Positions 3,020 through 43,648 of a stretch of DNA of 64,000 nucleotides are shown piece by piece (position 1 is the stretch's first letter; each line of letters opens with the position of its first letter). A model generated the notes under the pieces. That model did not search any database. It was given only the letters and a program-made list of their open reading frames with translations, and had not been told where the DNA came from. Source of the DNA: Microbulbifer pacificus. Its GTDB lineage: Bacteria > Pseudomonadota > Gammaproteobacteria > Pseudomonadales > Cellvibrionaceae. The position numbers and the translations under genes were made by a program. The stretch is taken from assembly GCF_033723955.1 (NCBI RefSeq), contig NZ_CP137555.1, positions 3,464,001-3,528,000 on the forward strand, written 5' to 3'.

Positions 3020-3550
3020 TTAAGGGGTGGCGGGGTTGTCGGTGACGGGCGCGCTGATGTCCAGGCGGCGAATGCGGTCGATGATGCGGCTGATGAGTTC
3101 GCGGCGCATCTCTTCCCGCTGCAGGCGTTCTTCTTCGCCTTTACTGACGACTTCGTTGTCGTCCCATTCCAGGGTGCGGTAGACGTCGGCTTTGGCGTTG
3201 GTGAGCAGGTCGCGACCTGTATTGTCACGCACGCTGTATTCGGCGCTGGTGATGAGTTCATACTCTGAAGCGCGGCCTTTGGCATCCACAGAGACGGTGC
3301 GTTTCTGTTCGATTTCTTTGTGGATGGTGAGGGTGAAGTCAGCTTCGACCGGGGTTTCTGCCAGGGGCAGGCCGCTGGTTTGCAGCAGGCGGGTGATGCT
3401 CTCGGCGAGTTCGCTTCTGGGATCTTCGGTGGTGATGTAGAGCTTGCTTCCGGGTGGGAAGTTTTTCGGTGCGCCGCGGAGGTGCCAGCCACAGGCTGAG
3501 ATTGTCACGGCCAGGATTAAGGTCAGTGTGCGAAGCGTGGTTGTTTTCAT
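3020..3550 (-). CDS. lptE: LPS-assembly lipoprotein LptE
   Basis: LptE plugs the LptD barrel and helps insert lipopolysaccharide into the outer membrane. The 176-residue precursor has a short hydrophobic signal peptide ending in a lipobox (ISAC, Cys20) followed by GWHLRG, which is typical of LptE. The gene lies between leuS and holA as in most gammaproteobacteria. The gap to leuS is unusually large (about 200 bp) and holds a palindromic repeat. A start at 3550 gives a compact signal peptide; a longer upstream frame is not supported. Confidence 0.93.
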   Translation of the reverse strand: MKTTTLRTLTLILAVTISACGWHLRGAPKNFPPGSKLYITTEDPRSELAESITRLLQTSGLPLAETPVEADFTLTIHKEIEQKRTVSVDAKGRASEYELITSAEYSVRDNTGRDLLTNAKADVYRTLEWDDNEVVSKGEEERLQREEMRRELISRIIDRIRRLDISAPVTDNPATP

Positions 3551-3580
3551 CGAGGTCCGTTGGGTTCTTTATTAATTCCG

Positions 3581-3705
3581 GTGGCGGCAAAGCACCGGGT
3601 AAGGGTTTTTGAAACCGCTGTGAATACATCCCTGTACGCTGCGTCGGCAACATCCCTGTTGCCGACGCTTTCAAAAACCCTTACCCGGCACTTTGCCTTC
3701 GCATC
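3581..3705 (+). repeat. ~125-bp structured intergenic repeat, copy 1
   Basis: The element starts GTGGCGGC and ends CCTTCGCATC. The outer arms at 3586-3614 and 3669-3697 are 29 nt each and complementary except for a 2-nt mismatch at positions 8-9. Between them are a small TACA-TCCC-TGTA hairpin (3626-3637) and a 12-bp hairpin (3639-3650 with 3659-3670 region, core GCGTCGGCAA at 3641-3650) also closed by a TCCC loop. Four further copies occur in this window. The copy lies between leuS and lptE on the strand opposite to them. Confidence 0.85.
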
Positions 3706-3752
3706 ACGGTTTTATGCTTCGTAAGCCTGAGCGTTGAACTCGGGCCCTTTAT

Positions 3753-6983
<3,231 letters not shown>

Positions 6984-23352: not shown

Positions 23353-23373
23353 AGATCCCGATTAGATAGTTGA

Positions 23374-23510
23374 GTGGCGTCGGAGCACCGGGTGCGGGTT
23401 TTCAGGACCGGGCTAGGCGCCCCCCTTCAACCCATCCCTGTACGCTGCGTCGCAAACATCCCTGTTTGCGACGCTCCTGAAAACCCGCACCCGGTGCTCC
23501 GCCCTAGATC
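23374..23510 (+). repeat. Structured intergenic repeat, copy 2
   Basis: The 27-nt outer arms at 23381-23407 and 23475-23501 are perfectly complementary. The inner 12-bp hairpin (23447-23458 with 23463-23474) is closed by TCCC. Its stem reads GCGTCGCAAACA where copy 1 has GCGTCGGCAACA, with matching changes on the other side. The left end is GTGGCGTC. The spacer before the inner hairpins is longer than in the other copies. It lies between the convergent slipin and pgi genes. Confidence 0.82.
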
Positions 23511-23571
23511 CGAAGTTTGTGGTTTTTCCCCGGCGAATAGGTAATTTCAAGTGGATCAAAGTGCTGAACGA

Positions 23572-23696
23572 GACGAGAAGGCAAAGTGCTGGGGATCTGT
23601 TTTCAAAAGCGTCGGCAACAGGGATGTTGCCGACGCAGCGTACAGGGACGTATTCACAGCGGTTTTGAAAACAGATCCCCAGTGCTTTGCCGCCAC
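23572..23696 (-). repeat. Structured intergenic repeat, copy 3 (inverted)
   Basis: Read on the minus strand, this copy has the same ends and an inner region of 54 nt that differs from copy 1 by about one base. Its 29-nt outer arms (23580-23608 and 23663-23691) have a mostly different sequence from copy 1 but remain complementary, with the same 2-nt mismatch at positions 8-9. It sits 62 bp from copy 2 in the opposite orientation and ends 34 bp before the pgi stop. Confidence 0.85.
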
Positions 23697-23730
23697 CGGG
23701 TTAGCTAAGTGAATACCACAAAATTAGCGA

Positions 23731-43312: not shown

Positions 43313-43339
43313 ATTACTTGCGACTGTGCGATGAAATTT

Positions 43340-43465
43340 GATGCGAAGGCCCTGATGCCGATGGCTGTTCGCAGGACCGTCTGCGGCCTGGATGGCCGCA
43401 GCCGAGCCCCCATGGATGGGTTTACGGCGTGTCCTGCGAACAGCCATCGGCTACAGGGCCGCCAC
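43340..43465 (-). repeat. Structured intergenic repeat, copy 4 (inverted)
   Basis: The 29-nt arms at 43348-43376 and 43432-43460 are complementary except for a 2-nt mismatch at positions 8-9, as in copies 1 and 3, but with a wholly different sequence. Read on the minus strand, the interior has CCCA-TCCA-TGGG and a second hairpin with stem CTGCGGCC and an ATCCA loop. The ends are GTGGCGGC and CCTTCGCATC. It lies just upstream of holC. Confidence 0.82.
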
Positions 43466-43497
43466 TGCGGCAGTTTCAGAACTCCGAACTGACTTTA

Positions 43498-43624
43498 GTG
43501 GCGGCGCCGCTACCGGGTAGTGCCTTGCGAGACGCGCCGTGAACCCATCCATGGGGGCTCTTCCGCGAGGTCCCTCTCGCGGAAGGTCTCACAAGGCACT
43601 ACCCGGTATCAGTTCCTTCGCGTC
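43498..43624 (+). repeat. Structured intergenic repeat, copy 5
   Basis: The element begins GTGGCGGC and ends CCTTCGCGTC. The outer arms at 43511-43533 and 43586-43608 pair with one mismatch. Inside are GTGAA, a CCCA-TCCA-TGGG hairpin, and a 10-bp hairpin (43560-43569 with 43576-43585) whose loop contains TCCC. It is 33 bp from copy 4 and ends 24 bp before the pepA stop. Confidence 0.82.
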
Positions 43625-43648
43625 GAACTAACCACTTCGTGGTCTGAT

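Follow-up and report, generated by a model that had tools for sequence, protein, structure and literature searches.

Long intergenic palindromes of Microbulbifer pacificus are probably resident copies of a YPAL/RU-2-type miniature transposable element

Five intergenic palindromes of about 125 bp recur within a stretch of 64,000 nucleotides of the Microbulbifer pacificus genome (contig NZ_CP137555.1, positions 3,464,001 to 3,528,000; hereafter the window), raising the question of what kind of element they represent and what their shared fold is for. A sequence-only reading of the window had proposed them as copies of one defined element with a conserved, cloverleaf-like fold, and our analysis upholds both their positions and the fold: predicted RNA folding energies of the five copies lie 6.8 to 12.4 SD below those of dinucleotide shuffles, with none of 200 shuffles equalling the native sequence of any copy, and the paired arms covary, as detailed below. 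The copies, and the parts of copy A, are as follows (window coordinates):

Copy A, 3581..3705, + strand: between leuS and lptE, both on the - strand; model match 3578-3715, 149.5 bits
Copy A outer stem, 20 bp, left arm 3595..3614 and right arm 3669-3688, + strand: from the fold
Copy A hairpin 1, 3625..3636, + strand: TACATCCCTGTA; the loop on the opposite strand reads AGGGAT; from sequence and fold
Copy A hairpin 2, 3641..3668, + strand: GCGTCGGCAACATCCCTGTTGCCGACGC; from sequence and fold
Copy B, 23374..23510, + strand: tail-to-tail pair with copy C; model match 23371-23521, 102.6 bits
Copy C, 23572..23696, - strand: model match 23562-23699, 139.9 bits
Copy D, 43340..43465, - strand: in the pepA-holC spacer, head-to-head pair with copy E; model match 43330-43468, 107.6 bits
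Copy E, 43498..43624, + strand: model match 43495-43634, 121.8 bits

Read on its own strand, each copy starts with GTGGCGGC (A, C, D and E) or GTGGCGTC (B), and the core follows the layout CGCYGTRAA, hairpin, GGCT, hairpin. The GTGAA motif earlier ascribed to every copy is present in A, C and E, but D reads GTAAA and B carries a 13-nt junction insert and CTTCAA, its insert GGGCTAGGCGCCC standing in place of CTGTGAA. The 2-nt mismatch common to copies sets CA against CA and, read on the other strand, becomes a tandem T.G/G.T wobble. Junction inserts of the GGGCTAGGCGCCC type replace CTGTGAA in some further copies as well, and at one site one species has the insert and the other lacks it.

The idea of a defined element had been staked on the presence of further copies in the genome, and these are plentiful: a 15-base core pattern finds 52 genome matches against none for its reversed control, and a covariance model (R1) recovers at least 112 distinct copies at 94 places in the 4,194,096-bp contig, a figure that remains after removal of overlapping opposite-strand echoes from 143 rows and is a lower bound, with 150 of 1867 first-look candidates scored. 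Twenty-one neighbouring pairs lie less than 600 bp apart, 18 of them separated by a gap of at most 86 bp, and all 21 are inverted (17 tail-to-tail, 4 head-to-head). None of the 112 copies falls within a predicted gene, as called by a codon-usage gene finder made for this analysis; 74 occupy co-directional, 34 convergent and 4 divergent spacers. A facing stop codon lies within 80 bp at 81 of the 94 places, and the median distance for the 90 places with such a codon is 36 bp. Since the spacers of this genome had been selected for holding copies, background rates were taken from 1.2 Mb of the relative G001. Of its spacers longer than 60 bp, a copy is present in 44 of the 391 that lie between co-directional genes, in 6 of the 78 between convergent ones and in 2 of the 129 between divergent ones. 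Copies are thus scarce in divergent spacers, where promoters lie, and are found behind stop codons whichever way they point, single copies showing no strand bias with respect to transcription (29 sense and 21 antisense here, 18 and 16 in G001). Among named sequences, the LeuS encoded beside copy A is closest to that of Microbulbifer aggregans (95%). Among 24 relatives of the same genus, one has no match, 7 have 1-12 rows and 16 have from 35 to at least 87 rows, echoes included. Strong conservation spans 125 bp, and flanks of about 20 bp on one side and 30 bp on the other are weakly conserved; the ends of the unit are not fixed in Microbulbifer, where the unit displays no clear terminal inverted repeat, and the sites compared with G001 include no clean empty site and no target duplication.

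The sequence-only reading could not link the element to a named family. That no longer holds, as the core is homologous to that of the Yersinia palindromic sequence YPAL, or RU-2, of which the Rfam family Ysr224 is a piece. YPAL copies, too, are placed past stop codons. The available text of PMC2759123 prints the RU-2 sequence and equates RU-2 with YPAL, and together with that of PMC2229807 describes a miniature inverted-repeat element (MITE) of 167-168 bp; in the latter the ~168-bp unit lies between genes and has duplicated 3-26 bp of target sequence, at sites of dyad symmetry or beside them. Aligned with RU-2, the core of copy A matches at 44 of 58 positions with a score of 41, the best of 100 shuffles reaching 21; copy E is a borderline case, scoring 28 where the best shuffle scores 25, and a Haliea copy aligns no better than the best shuffle. 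Copies found in other genomes extend the comparison: a Yersinia artesiana copy retrieved with R1 matches RU-2 at 137 of 163 positions, and Mixta and Morganella copies align to it over 84 and 104 columns. The window has no match in Rfam at gathering scores; below these, Ysr224 (RF02770) matches copy A with 32.1 bits (E 5.3e-6; family cut-off 70 bits) and three further loci of the element (L009, L090 and L131) more weakly, while the 107-nt Ysr224 consensus is identical to RU-2 at 105 of 107 positions. We therefore accept the elements as YPAL-type miniature transposable elements, a putative membership that is founded on homology of the core. Both families, YPAL and the present one, are intergenic, multi-copy and palindromic and share the same two hairpins with their loops. 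The Microbulbifer element differs from YPAL/RU-2 in its flanks and outer stem, in a strongly conserved length of about 125 bp, in its frequent inverted pairs and in its spread over many families, and Ysr224 differs in having been described as a Yersinia sRNA gene rather than as a repeat family. A literature search returned no description of the element family in Microbulbifer or Marinobacter, and the available part of PMC3733652 mentions YPAL in passing. An orphan intergenic repeat, a Yersinia 'sRNA' and YPAL are in this way united by one core.

The same core is widely distributed in the class. R1 matches 14 of 26 named genomes, comprising three of Microbulbifer, three of Marinobacter, one of Haliea and one each of Shewanella, Mixta, Photobacterium, Erwinia, Rheinheimera, Morganella and Yersinia artesiana; the remaining 12, among them Serratia grimesii, Proteus, Hafnia and Yersinia nurmii, give no match with this model. 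A second model (R2), built on 19 copies from several families, returns the same 14 genomes, and across sampled Gammaproteobacteria it detects the core in 53 of 276 genomes and 48 of 216 genera (own included), or about a fifth of the genomes sampled. In a sample of the phylum, matches occur in 22 of 249 genomes (own included), all in the same class except for one marginal match (2.8e-4). Throughout the 19 copies TCC is invariant in both loops and the junction strand is likewise invariant, while the stems vary. In one other gammaproteobacterium the element also forms a tandem array, with six same-strand model matches spaced every ~227 bp (G493:C1:94419-95646).

Genomes with fresh copies reveal the units in which the core resides. 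In G282 it is flanked by 12-bp inverted repeats, YAGCAATTCCCA, and the corresponding end pattern has 319 matches against none in the reversed control. Among 30 loci inspected, a partner repeat is found at 24, of which 23 contain the core motif and 16 are bordered by target duplications of 9-10 bp, and we estimate some 150-160 units of one miniature element of 165-277 bp. In the longer of these units, hairpin 2 encloses additional hairpin modules, with AGGA loops that lie on the other strand. The six loci without a partner repeat were read as truncated or broken copies rather than as an autonomous partner; at two of them, a search for ORFs of at least 150 aa gave none (L369) and one that is helicase-like (L381). 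The units of G095 end in a different, 19-bp inverted repeat and those of G122 in a third kind, at least some 15 bp long; in each genome all six copies inspected carry both ends with at most 3 mismatches, and no clear target duplication was seen by eye in these six copies each. At least three kinds of terminal repeats argue that the core is a module common to different miniature elements. A Y1 search of the M. pacificus genome and the ORFs at two G282 loci yielded no transposase for the Microbulbifer, G282, G095 or G122 units. That one core occurs in units with different ends poses the question of what it is for, if not for the transposase.

Taken together, these data make it probable that the palindromes represent a non-autonomous miniature transposable element of the YPAL/RU-2 type, in copies that have long been resident, and their mobility as such is well supported. 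Four observed lines carry this reading: the homology to YPAL, the mid-unit position of the core in genomes with fresh copies, the placement past stop codons and the retention of most copies between two species. It is also the best supported of the four options that had been offered earlier (a structured RNA, a protein-binding cruciform, a mobile MITE-like unit, or a processing or termination signal). Movement of the elements would have depended on a transposase that acts in trans at the terminal repeats, with insertion past stop codons being tolerated and insertion in genes or promoters not, and resident copies would later have been reshaped by exchange between copies and arms, inversion, and loss of the middle. 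With less confidence, the core may have been kept for the folding of its ANGGA-loop strand, either as single-stranded DNA or as the element's RNA, in a protein-bound state. Transposition in trans with survival past stops explains the copy number, patchiness and placement of the family, and loss could also underlie the relatives of the genus with few copies or none. What such transposition leaves unexplained is the constancy of the junction strand and of both loops amid changing stems and ends. New in the present data are the wide sampled spread, the modular core, the joint changes of the two arms, the wobbles confined to one strand and the ANGGA loops.

Joint arm changes had been taken as proof of selection on structure, and covariation itself is real. 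It was assessed on 33 copies aligned by sequence alone with MAFFT, namely the five window copies and 28 of 30 other genome loci (two with a long insertion or deletion being excluded), with 36 consensus pairs. Of the cells in these pairs, 94.3% are paired as opposed to 71.5% in shuffles, pairing falls to at most 47.5% when partners are slid by 1-3 columns, and both sides have changed in 290 cells against 93.8 in shuffles; one of the five covariation measures, the number of further pair types, does not exceed shuffles (63 against 60.4, with 123 of 500 shuffles reaching 63). The conclusion drawn from it stands less well. Orthologous sites were compared at the 44 of 94 places for which both flanks, 79-96% identical, lie in the examined part of G001; 13 of the 44 site labels cannot be assigned uniquely, several copies sharing an identical 55-nt core, and we counted 22 one-to-one, same-strand pairs, including two that align poorly (2434804 and 3383714). 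Across the stem pairs of these 22, defined by the fold of the M. pacificus copy, 108 have changed on both sides with pairing kept, 95 on one side and 20 on two sides without Watson-Crick pairing, while 12 are gapped and 701 unchanged. As orthologous copies often differ by blocks replaced in both arms, copying from arm to arm or from copy to copy adds to the covariation.

Other sites show how far such reshaping can go. At 1698230 the orthologue has a hairpin 2 of another type above an unchanged outer stem, and at 2304922 the element is inverted in place between the two genomes. The D/E pair at the pepA-holC junction is kept in six genomes including M. pacificus, with element types swapped in four of them; in G007 the inverted pair in this spacer is reduced to its two outer ends, as if the middle had been deleted, and species without the element have other GC-rich hairpins there. 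Block changes, in-place inversion and the swapped D/E types between species thus lead us to view the covariation as a mixture of constraint and copying. At 9 of the 44 orthologous sites G001 has no model-level copy. In the portions of the alignments listed, as read by eye, G001 keeps one or both outer ends at 569170, 660389, 1863504 and 2507683 and a divergent copy at 2593025, while at 2256115 and 2901771 it has another hairpin of the GTAGGAGCCTGC type, which we take to resemble known REPs, in place of the cloverleaf element. The Microbulbifer copies amount to a natural record of how a near-perfect palindrome evolves, by pairs, by blocks and by inversions.

The two strands of the fold are not equivalent. 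Over 25 outer-stem pairs in 109 copies, read on the TCC-loop strand, we count 65 A.C, 11 G.T, 66 other and 2569 Watson-Crick pairs, counts that carry no probability, related copies not being independent, and that leave out the conserved CA/CA mismatch, which the GGA strand reads as a tandem wobble. As A.C on the TCC strand is G.T on the other, wobbles appear to be tolerated on the GGA-loop strand. A cruder arm-to-arm count (9 G.T against 109 A.C in this genome, 2 against 46 in G001) overstates the asymmetry because it includes the CA/CA mismatch. The ratio of A.C to G.T in single co-directional copies is 22:2 where the GGA strand is sense and 10:0 where it is antisense; being the same for both, the asymmetry points to the element itself rather than to a host message. 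Raw counts in the hairpins run the opposite way (17 G.T against 2 A.C in hairpin 1, 80 against 4 in hairpin 2), which we interpret as due to loop letters on the GGA strand and a one-base model shift in the common hairpin-2 type; as the loop-closing positions are GGA-strand loop letters and hairpin 2 is subject to this shift, hairpin wobbles were left out of the strand argument. On the GGA strand of the same 109 copies, ANGGA is present in hairpin 1 of 101, in hairpin 2 of 79 and in both of 72, and CANGGANG in hairpin 1 of 99, in hairpin 2 of 57 and in both of 49. The mean number of CANGGANG occurrences per copy is 1.43 here, compared with 0.01 on the opposite strand and 0.06 in mononucleotide shuffles.

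Which protein, if any, would read such a strand can be weighed from two sides. The core might be a single-stranded DNA or cruciform site whose GGA strand is folded and read by a mobility protein, with the terminal repeats being secondary, a reading that we hold to be possible and on balance doubtful. One-strand wobble tolerance regardless of gene direction, an invariant junction strand and loops amid variable stems, and the exclusively inverted orientation of close pairs are what it has in its favor, but in fresh copies the terminal inverted repeats lie well beyond the core, the G282 duplications are like those of ordinary DNA transposition, and the sole Y1-type protein of the genome does not track copy number. 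Alternatively, the core could act as an RNA that binds CsrA/RsmA, its two ANGGA hairpins forming a dual site and its copies serving as dispersed CsrA sites or decoys. The CsrA SELEX consensus RUACARGGAUGU, with the site in hairpin loops, is given in the available text of PMC4347634, and hairpin 1 fits it in full in 26 of 109 copies; the ANGGA loops shared by both hairpins, the near confinement of CANGGANG to the GGA strand, the TCC that is invariant across families, the tolerance of wobbles on the GGA strand and the presence of a csrA gene in this genome point the same way. We nevertheless judge the CsrA reading unlikely, given that there is no strand bias with transcription, that the wobble asymmetry is independent of gene direction, that 37 of 109 copies have no ANGGA in one of the loops, and that so short a motif may fit a conserved loop by chance or be read by a transposase too. 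Like CsrB/RsmZ-type RNAs the element has ANGGA hairpin loops, but it offers two sites per core instead of many and is known here as a DNA sequence in more than 100 dispersed copies. A CsrA role on the host mRNA strand was set aside on account of the unbiased sense and antisense counts in M. pacificus and G001, and CsrA is retained solely as a rival, a candidate partner named by the loops and not a finding. A broader version, in which a class-wide dual-hairpin RNA-binding module sits in unrelated MITEs and many gammaproteobacteria carry from a few to more than 100 mobile CsrA-binding cores, is a speculative extension that we would not expect to hold.

Two further readings concern the resident copies as a whole. 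They may by now serve their host as 3'-end signals, forming, whichever way they are oriented, hairpins in the RNA that would end transcription or shield the messages upstream of them. Placement past stop codons, the length and perfection of the stems, the fact that most sites are conserved from one species to another and the other GC-rich hairpins at pepA-holC in species without the element are consistent with this, and an effect of YPAL on upstream transcript stability is considered in the available part of PMC2229807. Both orientations occur, however, no terminator-type T run directly follows the element, a scan of positions 3300-4000 gives four terminator-like sites of which none is the element, and where the TCC strand is the one transcribed it shows no preference for G.T wobbles, so that we rate such a function as rather improbable. 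Miniature-element ancestry of the YPAL type is also to be set against the view that these are REP/BIME sequences moved by a RAYT transposase, which we regard as highly improbable. BIMEs are intergenic palindromes that often form inverted pairs, and the inverted pairing and 3' placement of the element resemble them. At about 125 bp, the element is much longer than a REP (a 20-40 bp palindrome with a GTAG-type tag, as the available text of PMC3733652 has it) and has another core, other ends and no GTAG-type head; a hairpin of the GTAGGAGCCTGC type stands alone at two of its sites in G001, and it has no link to the RAYT-like gene, whose protein does not track copy number.

The M. pacificus genome has one sub-threshold Y1 match (22.3 bits), a RAYT-like gene at L061:1129-1866 (G000:C1:1919026-1919760) with no model match of the element within 1.5 kb. 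As a mobilizer of the family it was rejected, the protein being 68-78% identical in relatives with few or no copies (G002, G003, G006, G008, G009 and G013) and no match to the gene turning up in G011 (55 rows of the element) or G021 (51 rows). Its HUH pair is missing at the expected place, the motif presumably having been lost. The protein is 68-84% identical in most Microbulbifer relatives, making it a candidate domesticated transposase.
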